Below, one piece after another: positions 39,550 to 46,284 of a DNA stretch of 64,000 bases. Source of the DNA: Leucobacter chromiireducens (GTDB lineage: Bacteria > Actinomycetota > Actinomycetes > Actinomycetales > Microbacteriaceae). Position 1 is the first letter of the stretch; the number at the start of each line of letters is the position of its first letter. The notes under the pieces are model-generated. The model was given only the letters and a program-made list of their open reading frames with translations. It did no database searches and was not told the DNA's origin. The stretch lies in contig NZ_RPDI01000019.1 of assembly GCF_003917135.1 (NCBI RefSeq), positions 1-64,000 of the forward strand, in the 5' to 3' direction. The translations under genes and the position numbers were made by a program.

Positions 39550-40692
39550 CTACAGCGTGTTGCCGAGCTTGAAGCCCTTCTCGCCCTCTTCGTCACGCGT
39601 GTATGAGAAGCCGTCGGCGCCGATGGTCACGGCCATCTCCGAGGCGTCGGTGCGCGCCACGACGGGCTGCGGGTTGCCGTCGAGGTCGAGCACGAGCGAC
39701 GCGTCCGTGTACCAGGACGGGACAACGGGGTTGCCCCACCAGTCGCGGCGCTGGTTGTCGTGCACGTCCCACGTGACGACCGGGTTGTCGGGATCGCCCG
39801 TGTAGTAGTCCTGCGTGTAGATCTCGACGCGGTGCCCGTCCGGATCGAGGATGTAGAGGTAGAACGCGTTCGAGACGCCGTGGCGGCCGGGGCCGCGCTC
39901 GATGCGATCGGACATGCGCAGGGCTCCGAGCTTGTCGCAGATCGCGAGGATGTTGTGCTTCTCGTGCGTCGAGAACGCGACGTGGTGCATGCGGGGGCCA
40001 TCGCCGCCTGTCGCAGCGGTGTCGTGCACGGTGGGCTTGCGACGCAGCCACGCCGCGTACACGGTGCCCTCCTCGTCCTGAATGTCCTCGGTGACGCGGA
40101 AGCCGAGGTCCTGGTAGTGGCGCACGGCGCGCGGCACGTCGGGGGTGACCTGGTTGAAGTGGTCGAGGCGCACGAGCGCGCCAGGCGTGTAGAGGTCGTA
40201 GCGCCACGCGAGCCGCTCGACGTGCTCGACGTCGTAGAAGAACTCGTAGGGGAAGCCTAGGGGATCCTCGACGCGCACGGAGTCGCCGATGCCCTTGGTG
40301 AAGCCATCGGCGCGACGCTCAACGCGGCAGCCGAGCTCGGTGTAGAAGGCGACCGCCTTGTCGAGATCCTCCGGCGTGCGCACGCGGTAGGAGAAGGCAG
40401 CCACCGCGGCGATGGGGCCCTGTCGCAGCACGAGGTTGTGGTGGATGAACTCCTCGAGCGAGCGGAGGTAGACGGTGTTCTCGTCCTCCTCGGTCACGGT
40501 GAGGCCGAGCACGTCGACGTAGAACGCGCGCGACGCCGCGAGGTCGGTGACCACGAGCTCCATGTACGCGCAGCGCAGGATGTCGGGCGCGGGCGACTTG
40601 GGGGTGAGGATCGGGTTGTCGGTCTTGATCGGGGCTTCCTTGGTGACGTAGAAGCCGGAGGAGGTCTTTTCGCGACCGGTGAGTTCAGACAT
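39550..40692 (-). CDS. hpaD: 3,4-Dihydroxyphenylacetate (homoprotocatechuate) 2,3-dioxygenase
   Basis: 380 residues, type I extradiol dioxygenase of the vicinal-oxygen-chelate fold. It opens the homoprotocatechuate ring between C2 and C3 to 5-carboxymethyl-2-hydroxymuconate semialdehyde. The sequence closely follows Brevibacterium fuscum HPCD as I recall it (DILRCAYMELVVTDLAASR, EEFIHHNLVL, HGVSNAFYLYILDPDGH). Iron ligands His178 (LDHFNQV), His237 (MHHVAF) and Glu290 (HRVEIY), and second-sphere His223 (TVHDT), are present. GAAGGAC before ATG 40692 fixes the start. Last gene of the hpa cluster on the minus strand; a hairpin separates it from hpaE. Confidence 0.95.
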   Translation of the reverse strand: MSELTGREKTSSGFYVTKEAPIKTDNPILTPKSPAPDILRCAYMELVVTDLAASRAFYVDVLGLTVTEEDENTVYLRSLEEFIHHNLVLRQGPIAAVAAFSYRVRTPEDLDKAVAFYTELGCRVERRADGFTKGIGDSVRVEDPLGFPYEFFYDVEHVERLAWRYDLYTPGALVRLDHFNQVTPDVPRAVRHYQDLGFRVTEDIQDEEGTVYAAWLRRKPTVHDTAATGGDGPRMHHVAFSTHEKHNILAICDKLGALRMSDRIERGPGRHGVSNAFYLYILDPDGHRVEIYTQDYYTGDPDNPVVTWDVHDNQRRDWWGNPVVPSWYTDASLVLDLDGNPQPVVARTDASEMAVTIGADGFSYTRDEEGEKGFKLGNTL

Positions 40693-40766
40693 GTCGTTGT
40701 CCTTCATTCGTGAATCTTGCGGGTGGTGCCACGCGACGGAGCGCGGCGGGGGAAAAGGGTCTGCTG

Positions 40767-40818: not shown

Positions 40819-42315
40819 CTACTTGCCTGCGCCGAAACGGGGCGAGTGCGCCTCGTTGAGCGTGATCTGGATCGACTGCGCGGTCGTGTAGAAGTCGACC
40901 GAGCGGTAGCCGCCCTCACGGCCGAGGCCCGACGCCTTGACGCCGCCGAAGGGGGTGCGCAGATCTCGCACATTGTTCGAGTTCAGCCACACCATGCCCG
41001 ACTCGATGCCGTGCGCGAAGTTGTGCGCGCGCTTCAGGTTCGAGGTCCAGACGTATGCGGCGAGGCCGTACTTCGTGTTGTTCGCGAGCTCCAGCGCCTC
41101 CTCGTCGGTGTCGAAGGGGGTGATCGCGACGACCGGGCCGAAGATCTCCTCCTGGAAGATCCGCGCGTCGGGCTTCACGTCGGCGAAGACGGTCGGCGCG
41201 ACGTAGTTGCCCTCGGGGAAGCCCTCGGGGCGTCCGCCGCCGGCGACGAGGCGGCCCTCGCCCTTGCCGATCTCGACGTAGCTCATGACCTTCTCGAAGT
41301 GGCTCGGGTGCACGAGTGCGCCCACCTCGGTCGCGGGATCCGAGGGCAAGCCGATCACGATGTTCTTCGCGCGCTCGGCGTAGCGTGCAACGAAGTCGTC
41401 GTAGATCGAGCGCTCGACGAGCACGCGGCTGCCTGCCGTGCAGCGCTCGCCGTTCAGGCTGAACACGCTGAACACGGTGGCGTCGAGTGCCTCGTCGAGA
41501 TCCGCGTCGGCGAACACGACCGACGGGCTCTTCCCGCCGAGCTCGAGCGAGAGGCCCTTCAGGAACGGCGCGGCGTTCGTGGAGATCATCGCGCCGGTCG
41601 AGCTGTCGCCGGTGAAGGAGATGAGCGGCACATCCGGGTGCTTCACGAGTGCATCGCCCGCGACGCCGCCGGAGCCGAGGATGAGGTTGAAGACGCCCTC
41701 GGGCACGCCGGCCTCGCGGAAGATCTCGGGCCACAGCGCCGCCGACAGCGGGGTGTAGCTCGCGGGCTTCAGCACGACCGTGTTGCCGGTCGCGATGGCG
41801 GGGGCCAGCTTCCACGACTCCTGCATGAAGGGCACGTTCCACGGCGTGATGAGCCCGGCGACGCCCTTCGGCTTGCGGTTCACGTAGTTGATCTGGCGGC
41901 CGGGCACCTTGGTGACGTTGTCGTGCTCGGCGACGATGAGATCGGCGAAGAAGCGGAAGTTCTCCGCGGCGCGGCGTGCCTGGCCCTTCGCCTGGGTGAT
42001 CGGGAGGCCGGAGTCCCAGCTCTCGATGAGGGCGAGCTGCTCGTCACGCGACTCGACGATGTCGGCGACCTTGTGCAGGATCCGCGAGCGCTCGCGCGGC
42101 AGCATCTTGGGCCACGGGCCCTCGTCGAAGGCGCGCTTCGCTGCGGCGACGGCGAGGTCGACATCGGCCTTGCTCGCGGACGCTGCGGTGATGTACACCT
42201 CGTTGGACACGGGCTCGATGACGTCGAACGTCGCGCCGTCCTGCGCGTCGACAAATTCGCCGTCGATGAAGAGCTGGATCTTCTCGGGCAGGCCCTCGGG
42301 CTTCTGGTGCGTCAT
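40819..42315 (-). CDS. hpaE: 5-Carboxymethyl-2-hydroxymuconate semialdehyde dehydrogenase
   Basis: 498 residues of the NAD(P)-dependent aldehyde dehydrogenase family, oxidising the ring-cleavage semialdehyde from HpaD to 5-carboxymethyl-2-hydroxymuconate. Family motifs: TPWNVPFMQESWKLAPAIATG, FTGDSSTGAMI, catalytic Glu in LELGGKSPS and catalytic Cys in LNGERCTAGSR, EEIFGPV. GGAGGAAG precedes ATG 42315. Assignment to HpaE rests on being next to hpaD and in line with the other hpa genes. Confidence 0.9.
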   Translation of the reverse strand: MTHQKPEGLPEKIQLFIDGEFVDAQDGATFDVIEPVSNEVYITAASASKADVDLAVAAAKRAFDEGPWPKMLPRERSRILHKVADIVESRDEQLALIESWDSGLPITQAKGQARRAAENFRFFADLIVAEHDNVTKVPGRQINYVNRKPKGVAGLITPWNVPFMQESWKLAPAIATGNTVVLKPASYTPLSAALWPEIFREAGVPEGVFNLILGSGGVAGDALVKHPDVPLISFTGDSSTGAMISTNAAPFLKGLSLELGGKSPSVVFADADLDEALDATVFSVFSLNGERCTAGSRVLVERSIYDDFVARYAERAKNIVIGLPSDPATEVGALVHPSHFEKVMSYVEIGKGEGRLVAGGGRPEGFPEGNYVAPTVFADVKPDARIFQEEIFGPVVAITPFDTDEEALELANNTKYGLAAYVWTSNLKRAHNFAHGIESGMVWLNSNNVRDLRTPFGGVKASGLGREGGYRSVDFYTTAQSIQITLNEAHSPRFGAGK

Positions 42316-42386: not shown

Positions 42387-43061
42387 CTACGCGGCTGGCG
42401 CCGCGTGCCGGTGCTGTTCCTCGGAGTGGGCGAGCACCGCGTCGAGCGTCGCGGTGCGGTGCTCGCGTGCGGTGAGCTCGATGTCGAGCGGGGAGGCCCC
42501 CTGCTCGATCAGTTCGAGGAGTCGTTCGTGCTCGGCAACCGACTCGCTGGCGCGACCGGGCACGAAGCTGAACGAGGAGTTGCGCAGCACCTTCATGCGG
42601 TTCCAGCCGCGGTGCACGAGGTCGAGGATGTGCGGGTTGGGGCACGTCTCGAACAGCACGCTGTGGAACTCGAGGTTCAGCTCGGTGAAGCGCTGCGGGT
42701 CAAACGCGCTGAGCGATTCGCGCATCGTCTCGTTGACGGCGCGCGCGCGAGCGATCTGATCCGCGGTGATGAACGGCGCGGCGAGGCCGGTGGCCGATCC
42801 CTCGACGAGCGCGAGCGTCTGCATCGTGTGCAGGTACTCGGTCTCCTTGACGAGCGAGACCTGCGCGCCGACGTTGCGCTCGAACGTGACGAGCTGCTCG
42901 GCCTCGAGGCGACGAATCGCCTCACGCACCGGCACGACCGACATGTCGAGCTCGGCCGCGATCGGTGCGAGCACGAGGCGGTAGCCCGGCACGTACTGAC
43001 CGCTGTCGATCCTCGCTCGGATCAGGCGGTAAGCGCGCTCGGACTTCGACTCGGCGGTCAT
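42387..43061 (-). CDS. GntR-family regulator of the hpa cluster
   Basis: 224 residues: winged helix at the N-terminus (APIAAELDMSVVPVREAIRRLEAEQLV) and an FCD-type ligand domain (LNLEFHSVLF; EHERLLELI; AREHRTATL). Its start lies 1 base after the stop of the FAH-RraA gene, so it is co-expressed with the pathway. Two identical ATCGTATACGAT sites over the cluster's promoters are its likely operators, fitting the GTATAC cores of FadR/VanR-type regulators. Inducer probably a pathway acid (inference). Confidence 0.85.
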   Translation of the reverse strand: MTAESKSERAYRLIRARIDSGQYVPGYRLVLAPIAAELDMSVVPVREAIRRLEAEQLVTFERNVGAQVSLVKETEYLHTMQTLALVEGSATGLAAPFITADQIARARAVNETMRESLSAFDPQRFTELNLEFHSVLFETCPNPHILDLVHRGWNRMKVLRNSSFSFVPGRASESVAEHERLLELIEQGASPLDIELTAREHRTATLDAVLAHSEEQHRHAAPAA

Positions 43062-43062
43062 T

Positions 43063-44559
43063 TCACGCCCCCTCGGCGAGGAACGCGTCGTACCGTGCAC
43101 GCCACTCGGCGTTCATGGGGAAGAGGCCGTCGACGGCGTGGCCCTCCGCGACGCGGTCTGCCACCCAGGCATCGGCCTGCTCCTGGGCCGCGGCCTCGGC
43201 GGCCACCTCAGCGAGCAGGAACGGCGGGATCACGATGACGCCGTCGCGGTCGCCCATGATGATGTCGCCGGGCTGCACCGCGGCGCCGCCGCACGCGATG
43301 GTGACGTCGGTCTCCCACGGGACGTGGCGGCGGCCGAGCACGCTCGGGTGGGCACCCTGCGAGAAGACGGGAATGTCGAAGGCTTGCACTGCGGCGAAGT
43401 CGCGCACCCCGCCGTCGGTGACGATGCCCGCGGCGCCGCGCACCTGCGCGCGCAGCGCGAGCACGTCGCCGACGGTGCCGGTCGAGGGGATCCCGCGCGC
43501 TTCGACGACGAGCACTTCGCCCTCGTTCACGGTGTCGAAGGCCCGCTTCTGGGCGTTGAAGCCGCCCCCGTGCGCCTTGAACAAGTCGGGGCGGAAGGGG
43601 ATGAAGCGAAGGGTCTTCGCGGTGCCGAGGATCGTGTCGCCCTCGTGGTTCGGGTGCACGCCGTCGATGAAGATGTCGACGTAGCCGCGCTTGCGCAGCG
43701 CCGCAGAGACCGTCGCGACCGCGACGCCGGAGAGCTGCGCGCGGATCTCGGGGGTGAGAATCTGCGCGGGATCCGTGCCGTCGCCGGCGAGCGGCGTCGC
43801 GCGGCCTGCGGCCACCGCGGCGGCGTGCTCGGCCTCGCTGCCCCAGGCCTCCACGCGCTGCAGGTCGTCGACCTTCGGGGTGTTGCCGAAGTCGCCGAAC
43901 GCGGTGGTGCCCTGGGTGACCGTGGTCACGAGGCGGCCGGTGGTGGGGGCGCCTGGCGCGTTCGGGGCGTCGACCTCGACCTCGACGACGTCGCCGGGGA
44001 GCACCACGGAGGAGCCGGCCGGGGTGCCGGTGAGGATCACGTCGCCCGGCTCGAGCGTCATGTGCTGCGAGAGGTCGGCGACGAGCTGGCCGAACGGGAA
44101 TGCGAGGGTGTCGCTCGTGTCGTCCTGCACGAGCTCGCCGTTGACCCAGGTGCGCACGCGCCAGTCGTCCTGGCCGATCCCTGCGGTCTCGATCGCGGCC
44201 GGGCCGATGGGGGTGAAGCCGTCCCCGCCCTTGTTGCGCACGTTGGAGCCCTTATCGGCAGCACGGAGGTCGTAGAGACCGAAGTCGTTGGCGGCGGTGA
44301 CCTGCGCGACGTGGCTCCAGCCGTCCTCGGGGGAGACCCAGCGCGCGGTCGTGCCGATGACGAGCGCGATCTCGCCCTCGAACGCGAGGAGCTCGGTGCC
44401 TGCCGGGCGCTCGATGGTGCCGCCGGTCGGGGCGAGTGAGGACGCCGGCTTGAAGAAGTAGGACGGGAATGCTGGTGTGCGGCCGCGCTGCGCGATGCGC
44501 GACGGGTAGTTGAGGTGCACGGCAATGATCTTGCCTGGGGTCTCGATTCCGTAGGTCAT
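43063..44559 (-). CDS. Fusion of fumarylacetoacetate-hydrolase domain and RraA-like aldolase/decarboxylase domain (HpaG-type role)
   Basis: 498 residues. Residues 1-225 are an FAH domain with metal ligands in AFEGE (Glu61, Glu63) and AANDFG (Asp92), as in HpaG isomerase/decarboxylase. A linker leads to an RraA-like domain (about 270-498) with TDGGVRD (381-387) and GDRDGVIVIPP (436-446), the signature of HMG/CHA aldolases and oxaloacetate decarboxylases. E. coli HpaG instead has two FAH halves. Here the second half is replaced, so I infer the FAH part isomerises and the RraA part decarboxylates. GAGGGAG before ATG 44559 fixes the start; ATG 44574 is possible. Confidence 0.85.
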   Translation of the reverse strand: MTYGIETPGKIIAVHLNYPSRIAQRGRTPAFPSYFFKPASSLAPTGGTIERPAGTELLAFEGEIALVIGTTARWVSPEDGWSHVAQVTAANDFGLYDLRAADKGSNVRNKGGDGFTPIGPAAIETAGIGQDDWRVRTWVNGELVQDDTSDTLAFPFGQLVADLSQHMTLEPGDVILTGTPAGSSVVLPGDVVEVEVDAPNAPGAPTTGRLVTTVTQGTTAFGDFGNTPKVDDLQRVEAWGSEAEHAAAVAAGRATPLAGDGTDPAQILTPEIRAQLSGVAVATVSAALRKRGYVDIFIDGVHPNHEGDTILGTAKTLRFIPFRPDLFKAHGGGFNAQKRAFDTVNEGEVLVVEARGIPSTGTVGDVLALRAQVRGAAGIVTDGGVRDFAAVQAFDIPVFSQGAHPSVLGRRHVPWETDVTIACGGAAVQPGDIIMGDRDGVIVIPPFLLAEVAAEAAAQEQADAWVADRVAEGHAVDGLFPMNAEWRARYDAFLAEGA

Positions 44560-44662: not shown

Positions 44663-45514
44663 CTAGTAGGAGGCGCGTGGCTCGGCCGCCGCGCCAGCGT
44701 CACCAGCGCCACCAGCGCCCGCGTCACCCGCGAAGCGCCCAACGAGCGCCTCCGTCTGCCGCGCGAGGAGCGCAACGTCGGCGCCGACCGCGACGAACGA
44801 CGCGCCAGCGGCGAGGTATCGCTCGGCGTCCGCCGGTACGAACGCGTTCACGCCCACCGGCGTGCCGGCGGCCACGCCCGCGCGGATCGCGCGCAGCACG
44901 TTCTCGACGACGTCGGGGTGGCCCTGCTGGCCGAGGAGCCCCATGGACGCCGCGAGGTCGGACGGACCGACGAAGATCGCGTCGACCCCGTCGACCGCGA
45001 CGATCCGCTCGACGTCGGCGACCGCCGCGGCCGACTCGATCTGCACGGTCAGGCTGATCGTCTCGTTCGCGCGACCCAGGTAGCCCTCGACGCGGTTCCA
45101 GCGCGCCGAGCGCGCGAGCGCCGAGCCGACGCCGCGGACGCCGCCGCCCGCCGTGCCGTCCGGGTAGCGCACCGCCCGCACGATCTGCTCGGCCTGCTCC
45201 GCGGAGTCCACCATCGGGATGAGGAGGTTCTGCGCGCCGAGATCGAGGAACTGCTTGATCGTCACCGTGTCGCCGTACGGCGGGCGAACGAGCGGGGCCA
45301 CCGGGTATGCGGACATCGCGTACAGCTGCGCGAGGACCGATTCGAGCCCGTTGGGGGAGTGCTCGGCGTCGAGGAGCACCCAGTCGCAGCCGCTGCCGGC
45401 CACGATCTCGGCGGTCACCGGGCTGCCGGCGCAGGCCCACAGGCCGATGAGCGGGCGCTTGGCGGCGTCGAGCCGCGCGCGCAGCGTTGCCGGCAGCTCT
45501 ACACGAATCGGCAT
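44663..45514 (-). CDS. hpaI: 4-Hydroxy-2-oxoheptane-1,7-dioate aldolase
   Basis: 283 residues, class II (divalent-metal) pyruvate aldolase of the HpcH/HpaI family. It splits 4-hydroxy-2-oxoheptanedioate to pyruvate and succinic semialdehyde, the last pathway step. Visible: LIGLWACAGSP, DWVLLDAEHSPN (His general base region), VRPPYGD, IPMVDSAEQA, QIES and FVGPSDLAASMG metal-ligand regions. ATG 45514 lies 16 bp inside the end of hpaH. The C-terminus ends in a Gly/Ala-rich tail. Confidence 0.93.
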   Translation of the reverse strand: MPIRVELPATLRARLDAAKRPLIGLWACAGSPVTAEIVAGSGCDWVLLDAEHSPNGLESVLAQLYAMSAYPVAPLVRPPYGDTVTIKQFLDLGAQNLLIPMVDSAEQAEQIVRAVRYPDGTAGGGVRGVGSALARSARWNRVEGYLGRANETISLTVQIESAAAVADVERIVAVDGVDAIFVGPSDLAASMGLLGQQGHPDVVENVLRAIRAGVAAGTPVGVNAFVPADAERYLAAGASFVAVGADVALLARQTEALVGRFAGDAGAGGAGDAGAAAEPRASY

Positions 45515-46284
45515 GTCACCGATCCCAGCTCGTGGTAGTCGGCGTGCACGGTGTCGCCGCGCTCCACCCACATCGGCTTCGTGAACGAGCCGGCCAGGAT
45601 GATCTCGCCGGCCTCGAGCGTCTGTCCGTGCTGTGCGAGCTTGTTGGCGAGCCACGCGACGCCCATCGCCGGGTGGCCGAGGATCGCGCCGGCAACGCCG
45701 GAGTCCTCGATGGTCTCGTTGCGGTAAAGGAGGGCGGGGACCCAGCTGAGATCCACCTCGTCCACCTTCACCGGGCGGCCGCCGAGCACCATGGCGCCCA
45801 TCGCGGCGTTGTCGCTGATCGTGTCGACGATGGTGCGACCCTCGAGTTCGAGGTGCGAGTTCAGCACCTCGAGCGCCGGCACGACGTACGCGGTCGCGTC
45901 GAGCACGTCGAAGATGGTGGTGCCCGGGCCGGCGAGCGGCTTGTCGAGTACGAAGGCGAGCTCGACCTCGATGCGCACGTTCGAGTAGCGATCGAACTCG
46001 AGGACGGAGCCGGACTCGAACACCATGTCGTCGTGGATGACGCCGTAGTCGGGCTCGGAGATGCCGGTCGCGAGCTGCATGACCTTGGAGGTGAGCCCGA
46101 TCTTGTGGCCGACGAGCTTGGCGCCCTGCGCGATGCGCCGGTCCGACCACACCTTCTGGATCGCGTACGAGTCTTCGATCACCATGCCGGGGTAGCGACT
46201 GGTGAGCTTGGGCAGCACCGCGCGGTCGCGATCCGCCTGGACAAGCTCCTCGGCGATGGCGTCAATCTGGGTCTGGTCGAGCAC
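45499..46284 (-). CDS. hpaH: 2-Oxohept-4-ene-1,7-dioate hydratase
   Basis: 261 residues, close to E. coli HpaH in length. FAH-related hydratase adding water to the 2-oxohept-4-ene-dioate product. Features: LTSRYPGMVIEDSYAIQKVW, LVGHKIGLTSKVMQ, RIEVELAFVL (metal Glu residues), LEVLNSH, and GSFTKPMWVERGD near the end. GTG 46284 is the start because AAAGGAGG is ideally spaced; the longer frame to 46443 runs through the promoter. First gene of the cluster, behind a GntR-operator promoter. Confidence 0.92.
   Translation of the reverse strand: MLDQTQIDAIAEELVQADRDRAVLPKLTSRYPGMVIEDSYAIQKVWSDRRIAQGAKLVGHKIGLTSKVMQLATGISEPDYGVIHDDMVFESGSVLEFDRYSNVRIEVELAFVLDKPLAGPGTTIFDVLDATAYVVPALEVLNSHLELEGRTIVDTISDNAAMGAMVLGGRPVKVDEVDLSWVPALLYRNETIEDSGVAGAILGHPAMGVAWLANKLAQHGQTLEAGEIILAGSFTKPMWVERGDTVHADYHELGSVTCRFV

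Follow-up and report, generated by a model that had tools for sequence, protein, structure and literature searches.

The hpa locus and the fused gene

The window, the whole 64,000-nucleotide stretch of Leucobacter chromiireducens DNA that was analysed, carries a homoprotocatechuate gene cluster on one strand, in the transcription order hpaH-hpaI-fusion-gntR-hpaE-hpaD. The gene considered here (43063..44559, minus strand; ATG at 44559, start codon checked, and a stop codon ending at 43063) encodes a 498-residue protein, which the ORF call, Pfam and NCBIfam together identify as a fumarylacetoacetate hydrolase (FAH)-RraA fusion of the NF009399/PRK12764 family; frame 1 of the plus strand over the same span is interrupted by a stop codon. 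A sequence-only reading of this DNA had proposed one FAH and one RraA-like domain in a single ORF, with the motifs TDGGVRD and GDRDG. Pfam finds the two domains as described, on the minus strand, and both motifs are there. Chance, a frame error or an assembly artefact is ruled out as the origin of the fusion because the fused protein also occurs in 117 other loci, in each of which a stretch of 430 residues or more could be read, some of these loci possibly representing one species from two collections.

The neighbours, all on the minus strand, are the hydratase HpaH (45499..46284, 261 residues, GTG at 46284), an HpaI-like aldolase (44663..45514, 283 residues, ATG at 45514), a GntR-family regulator (42387..43061), the CHMS dehydrogenase HpaE (40819..42315, 498 residues, ATG at 42315), each named by NCBIfam, and HpaD, a homoprotocatechuate 2,3-dioxygenase of the VOC type (39550..40707), which scores above the TIGR02295 cut-off. 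A single base separates the stop codon of the fusion from the ATG of gntR. HpaD (430.8 bits against an NCBIfam cut-off of 321.4) is the sole neighbouring enzyme over an equivalog cut-off; HpaE (632.7 against 638.35) and HpaH (348.9 against 351.5) fall slightly short and HpaI clearly so (294.8 against 368.8). The separately encoded HpaI of the sequence-only reading is thus present as an HpaI-like gene in the cluster, though under its family cut-off. Another contig of the same genome holds a match to the HpaB hydroxylase, and the ORF directly upstream of it resembles a flavin reductase by eye, which makes a 4-hydroxyphenylacetate route plausible in this genome. On contig C33 there is an extra FAH-family gene (L204:2596-3438), which shares about 44% identity with the FAH half of the fusion and lies directly after isopropylmalate-dehydrogenase-like and ilvE-like genes (names by eye); it is possibly a house-keeping FAH.

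Domain architecture and family membership

Pfam places FAA_hydrolase at residues 10-214 (E 1.6e-47) and the RraA-like domain at residues 282-443 (E 2.7e-32), and these are the only matches at E<=0.001, with no match to PF02962 (HpaF). We divide the protein into an FAH half (PF01557; residues 10-214, 43918..44532, minus strand), which bears the triad E61, E63 and D92 plus K110, a variable linker (residues 215-265, 43765..43917, minus strand) and an RraA-like half (PF03737; residues 266-493, 43081..43764, minus strand), whose Pfam core at 282-443 includes D365-x20-R386-D387. The linker is delimited by the identity profile and by AlphaFold pLDDT: in the 118-protein alignment the mean identity to the window residue is 0.48 there, compared with 0.78 in the FAH half and 0.72 in the RraA half, and pLDDT drops below 50 at residues 225-228 and 259-265. 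The AlphaFold model (44 fusions) has a mean pLDDT of 80.2 and a pTM of 0.48, and it therefore describes two sound domains, but their relative arrangement is not fixed by the model. The FAH half resembles HpcE and other FAH structures (1wzo, Z 23.7; C half of 1i7o, Z 22.3). For the RraA half the top-ranked solved structure is Streptomyces RraAS2 (5x15, Z 26.4, 32% identical), and the HMG/CHA aldolase 3noj gives Z 20.9.

Over residues 6-493 the protein scores 792.7 bits against NF009399 (PRK12764), well over the cut-off of 444, and since this 'equivalog' spans both domains, the architecture has already been catalogued. Against the other families compared, the score stays under the cut-off in all cases but one: TIGR02303 (HpaG C half) gives 130.7 bits against 276.4; TIGR02305 (HpaG N half) gives 89 against 228.65, on the same single FAH domain; TIGR02798 (LigK/PcmE CHA aldolase-oxaloacetate decarboxylase) gives 84.5 against 304.5; and TIGR02998 (RraA, the RNase E regulator) gives 26.5 against 241.25. 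The exception is the RraA-like NF006093 (PRK08245 subfamily), which residues 268-493 match with 228.2 bits, above its cut-off of 208.

Catalytic residues of the two halves

E61, E63 and D92 align with the Glu-Glu-Asp metal triad of the HpaG C half, and each of them, like K110, is invariant in all 118 fusion proteins when read from aligned columns, which we used in place of a regular expression that proved too strict (100/117). None of the six HpaG N halves or HpaG1 proteins in the comparison retains either triad glutamate. A tree in which several rows are flagged as long branches places the fused FAH half outside the HpaG-C clade, among actinobacterial FAH proteins that stand alone. HpaG-C and FAHD1 have a His-x-x-Glu lid pair, in FAHD1 His30-Glu33 according to part of PMC8398924; this pair is replaced in the fused FAH half, and a single FAH from Rhizobium likewise has no lid His.

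In the RraA half, D365, R386 and D387 are invariant in 118 of 118 proteins (the window's and 117/117 other fusions), and R386/D387 align with the catalytic R123/D124 of the Pseudomonas putida aldolase (3noj). The LigK/PcmE aldolase motif has the form D/E-x20-R-D. For the P. putida enzyme, sections of PMC5065237 propose that Arg-123 stabilises the pyruvate enolate and state that the Asp binds metal; they further report that the enzyme exchanges pyruvate methyl protons and also decarboxylates oxaloacetate.

Distribution and the tie to hpaD

Among 296 genomes sampled across the phylum, five score above the NF009399 cut-off, every one of them from the window's order, while 252 of the 257 genomes with any NF009399 match stay under it. 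In a sample of 396 genomes from the order, the fusion exceeds its cut-off in 115 and HpaD in 122. The two occur together in 113 genomes, HpaD with an RraA module that is split off or alone in 9, the fusion without HpaD in 2, and neither in 272; HpaD without an RraA module occurs in 0 of 396, the module being present in 122 of 122 HpaD-positive genomes. Fisher's test of HpaD against the fusion gives a very small p, with relatedness ignored. The sequence-only reading had raised the possibility that the fusion lies mainly outside homoprotocatechuate clusters; the opposite is seen, hpaD being within 10 kb of the fusion in 112 of the 115 genomes. Partners in the best 80 named loci, which come from Leucobacter, Agromyces, Microbacterium, Leifsonia, Isoptericola and others and several of which stop at contig ends, are HpaI (79), GntR (79, in each case adjoining the fusion), HpaE (78), HpaH (77) and HpaD (73). 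Two loci have gaps that a contig end does not explain: L062 is without HpaD or GntR, and L115 without HpaD, HpaH and HpaI.

The cluster is also plasmid-borne, in Rhodococcus and Paenarthrobacter, and the fusion is present together with HpaD on plasmids from Arthrobacter and Embleya. In the class sample HpaD was found in 5 of 108 genomes, of which four were already in the survey; in the fifth (G699), FAH and RraA matches are adjacent and in one frame by coordinates, together with GntR, HpaE and HpaD, and the 19.9 kb of this locus hold no HpaF. The fusion is widespread within the order and tied to the homoprotocatechuate pathway.

Missing HpaG N half and HpaF, and the mutual exclusion of HpaF and the fusion

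The survey of co-occurrence that the sequence-only reading had suggested finds the fusion in company with hpaDEHI genes, and finds no isomerase half of a two-half HpaG: the HpaG N half is present in 0 of 396 order genomes, either over its cut-off or at E<=1e-40, in a search in which, of the control genomes, Thermus and Deinobacterium gave matches, under the cut-off. The first reading overlooked HpaF, which is likewise missing. Weak Pfam matches to HpaF (PF02962) occur in only 2 of the 396 order genomes (G353 and G409), on contigs other than that of the fusion. The window's genome has no match to PF02962 (HpaF), PF01361 (4-OT) or PF14552 (Tautomerase_2), a search in which the PF02962 control matched nowhere. 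With a profile derived from nine HpaF sequences, which finds HpaF in 10 of 10 control loci and also works with one sequence left out in the five cases tried, no HpaF-like ORF is detected in 85 fusion loci (1.73 Mb including the window), nor in 17 further stretches (L145-L161) with split halves, RraA alone, FAH alone or, in L160, a fusion.

Outside Actinobacteria our survey of HpaF and the HpaG N half covers plasmid records and one E. coli chromosome. Sixty of 99 plasmid records with a VOC-type HpaD were examined, and in 56 of them HpaF lies within 6 kb (51 by listing or annotation, five more on inspection). The remaining four are exactly the records that carry the fusion, with at least 80% of it covered at one place, and the profile finds no HpaF in the flanks of these four loci. 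HpaF and the fusion are thus mutually exclusive in the 60 records, 56 against 4. E. coli, Erwinia and Pantoea have a two-half HpaG with HpaF, and Sphingobium has HpaG1, HpaG2 and HpaF. A single FAH with HpaF, and with neither an HpaG N half nor RraA in the cluster, is found in two Deinococcus and in Rhizobium, Pannonibacter and Agrobacterium. In the clusters read, a lone FAH is partnered by HpaF or, in actinobacteria, by RraA.

Two other observations come from the plasmids. RraA-like genes lie on some records far from hpaD, as in NZ_CP030763 (593 kb versus 314 kb). A Pantoea piersonii plasmid (L187) and a plasmid of Erwinia sp. E602 (L188) encode VOC-type HpaD proteins 76-80% identical to the window's, in enterobacterial clusters that keep HpaF and two-half HpaG, which suggests that hpaD was transferred alone.

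Split and stand-alone modules

The two halves do not always travel as one gene. In G671 the FAH half has its own stop and neighbours hpaE and hpaD; about 380 kb away the RraA half, with its own start, accompanies gntR, hpaH and hpaI. In G582 (L145) the halves are adjacent in different frames, with the shift inside the linker, which may reflect an error in sequencing or a split that is natural. In seven genomes that belong to one genus (g210; L148-L154) a stand-alone RraA, 60-66% identical to the RraA half of the fusion, lies beside an HpaD-like dioxygenase and HpaI. Six of these loci also have HpaH, and none of the seven shows an FAH or HpaE match within about 9 kb of the RraA gene. One of these loci, the only one whose neighbours were scanned against families (L153:7255-18918), holds two DesA/LigM-like O-demethylase genes, under cut-off, and a methylenetetrahydrofolate-reductase-like gene, and appears to serve a pathway for a methoxylated aromatic compound. 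G109 combines RraA with a DapA-type aldolase and an HpaD-like protein. A genome that has the fusion, G465, carries a second, stand-alone RraA beside gntR, hpaH and hpaI (L155), where the other neighbours resemble LigM-type and transporter genes by eye. Because such FAH-less clusters carry RraA, the module seems to process a ring-cleavage product with no FAH involved. Ring opening in the known gallate route is followed by tautomerisation, hydration and aldol cleavage. The FAH-less clusters would fit RraA as a tautomerase, and would fit it equally as a decarboxylase if the substrate differs. Few forks are well supported in a tree of the RraA halves, which is therefore compatible with one origin of the fusion or with several.

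Discussion

What could an RraA-like half contribute to a homoprotocatechuate cluster that seems to dispense with both HpaF and half of HpaG? Gene context bears out the earlier suggestion that the fusion occupies the HpaG-equivalent slot, and the fusion is very probably the CHM-to-OHED module of the actinobacterial pathway: it would turn 5-carboxymethyl-2-hydroxymuconate (CHM), the HpaE product, into 2-oxohept-3-ene-1,7-dioate (OHED), the HpaH substrate, and would replace HpaF together with two-half HpaG. We infer every catalytic assignment to a half of the fusion. The division of labour that we favour, because of the HpaF exclusion and the kept metal triad, makes the FAH half the decarboxylase and the RraA half a CHM/OPET tautomerase, and its probability lies close to, though just under, an even chance. 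The RraA-like half would use its Arg-Asp pair to bind the 2-oxo/2-hydroxy acid end of the substrate at a metal, and would move a proton, converting CHM into 5-oxopent-3-ene-1,2,5-tricarboxylate (OPET) as a non-orthologous replacement of HpaF, and the metal-dependent FAH half would decarboxylate the tricarboxylate, which is the HpaG C-half step, and would probably let the dienol product ketonise. As HpaF and the fusion exclude each other, and as a single FAH with HpaF fills the slot elsewhere, HpaF is what the RraA half most likely replaces, the two genomes that hold both the fusion and an HpaF match (G353 and G409) being counter-cases. The chemistry of the P. putida RraA-fold aldolase could be used by a tautomerase; in the literature covered we met no RraA-fold tautomerase, RraA relatives being known for decarboxylation and aldol cleavage.

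The sequence-only reading had seen the fusion as an HpaG-like protein in which RraA took over the decarboxylation. Its pathway slot stands, as does the missing isomerase half of two-half HpaG, but the idea that RraA replaced the decarboxylase half is not supported, for the fused FAH keeps the triad of the E. coli HpcE C half, the half to which decarboxylation is assigned, and this triad is broken in the HpaG isomerase half. It is possible, if rather unlikely, that the RraA half is nevertheless the OPET decarboxylase, perhaps ketonising CHM beforehand at the same site, with the FAH half confined to an isomerisation, either of HHDD to OHED or of CHM to OPET. The D-x20-R-D residues kept in 118 of 118 proteins, with R386/D387 matching an aldolase that decarboxylates oxaloacetate, would suit such a role, as would the position of the FAH half outside the HpaG-C clade and without the lid pair, features for which orthology gives its decarboxylase role no firm footing, and the RraA relatives that stand beside HpaD-like proteins and HpaI in seven genomes with no detected FAH. 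The Rhizobium single FAH, however, is also without the lid His, single FAH proteins elsewhere apparently fill the role of HpaG in company with HpaF, and the rarity of HpaF and its exclusion by the fusion would become a side effect.

An FAH decarboxylase with an RraA tautomerase raises its own difficulty, which comes from Acinetobacter baumannii. Parts of PMC12718150 describe two FAH proteins that must pair for efficient decarboxylation, the triad-bearing one being called the decarboxylase, and an HpaF (CHMI) that speeds decarboxylation by isomerising CHM, which also isomerises spontaneously. With one FAH decarboxylase and HpaF but the FAH partner absent, little di-acid was formed, so a single FAH plus a tautomerase is not known to suffice; and as CHM isomerises without an enzyme, the loss of HpaF without replacement is conceivable. 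FAH enzymes, moreover, are themselves able to tautomerise according to PMC8398924 and PMC12176266. The HpaF step might accordingly be spontaneous or fall to an unlinked FAH paralogue, in which case RraA would replace no more than the HHDD isomerase, the N half of HpaG, or the role of that half as a partner of the decarboxylase. We consider this improbable. The spontaneous isomerisation and the need of the A. baumannii decarboxylase for a metal-less partner (PMC12718150, in part) speak for it, as do three further FAH genes in the window's genome and a Corynebacterium hpaF assigned to a distant gene in sections of PMC2830990; yet it does not explain why the single-FAH clusters of Deinococcus and Rhizobiales, which have no N half, keep HpaF without RraA. 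Very improbable, finally, is an RraA half that serves as a second aldolase, or one that gene fusion brought along as a domain for oligomerisation or regulation with no catalytic function. RraA-fold proteins do include pyruvate aldolases and RNase E regulators, judged by family matches, but the catalytic residues are invariant in 118 of 118 proteins, and RraA is kept as a separate gene in G671 and alone in FAH-less clusters. A second aldolase was rejected as the main reading, with an HpaI-like aldolase gene already adjoining the fusion in 79 of the best 80 loci.

Recruitment of the RraA fold across actinobacteria as a new 2-hydroxymuconate-type tautomerase in place of HpaF, which with an FAH decarboxylase would make a self-contained CHM-to-OHED enzyme, is a tentative proposal that we rate as somewhat short of probable. 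If the tautomerase reading is true, the FAH-less clusters, one of which lies near genes resembling syringate/vanillate demethylases, would use the same tautomerase on another ring-cleavage product. The homoprotocatechuate pathway of many soil actinobacteria would have to be redrawn, as a gene set that looks short of HpaF and of one HpaG half would lack nothing if these steps fall to the fusion: soil actinobacteria degrading this tyrosine-derived aromatic acid would rely on one fused two-domain enzyme, compared with a separate isomerase and a different enzyme elsewhere. Because the halves occur fused, split and, for RraA, alone, the assignment of each step to a domain is open to direct assay.

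Comparison with known systems

A counterpart in the same genomic slot is E. coli HpaG/HpcE, the OPET decarboxylase/HHDD isomerase, whose C-half triad is also found in the FAH of the fusion. As part of PMC12718150 relates, the metal-binding C half of HpcE was assigned as the decarboxylase and the N half as the isomerase on structural grounds only. Unlike HpaG/HpcE, the fusion has an RraA-like rather than an FAH second half, its triad-bearing half is N-terminal, and its FAH lies outside the HpaG-C clade and under both HpaG cut-offs. HpaF, the CHM delta-isomerase (PF02962), belongs to an unrelated family, although the RraA half is proposed to carry out the same step. LigK/PcmE (3noj) and RraA have the fold and the Arg-Asp pair in common with the RraA half, which is nonetheless far under the LigK cut-off (84.5 versus 304.5 bits).

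Likened by gene order, the hpaGLEDHI cluster of Corynebacterium aurimucosum (parts of PMC2830990) runs G-L(regulator)-E-D-H-I, just as the actinobacterial loci run fusion-GntR-E-D-H-I; in that cluster the name hpaG/OPET decarboxylase is given to the leading gene, with hpaF elsewhere on the chromosome, and the terms RraA and fumarylacetoacetate are absent from the main text of that report. An Arthrobacter strain grows on 4-hydroxyphenylacetate, for which a meta pathway has been proposed (PMC3534580, in part). Judged by titles and abstract openings, the CC-licensed PMC papers listed in our literature searches do not treat the FAH-RraA fusion. The window protein is a member of NF009399/PRK12764, the 'fumarylacetoacetate hydrolase family protein' of identical two-domain architecture, whose name gives neither function nor pathway; new here are the tie of this family to the hpa cluster and its exclusion of HpaF.
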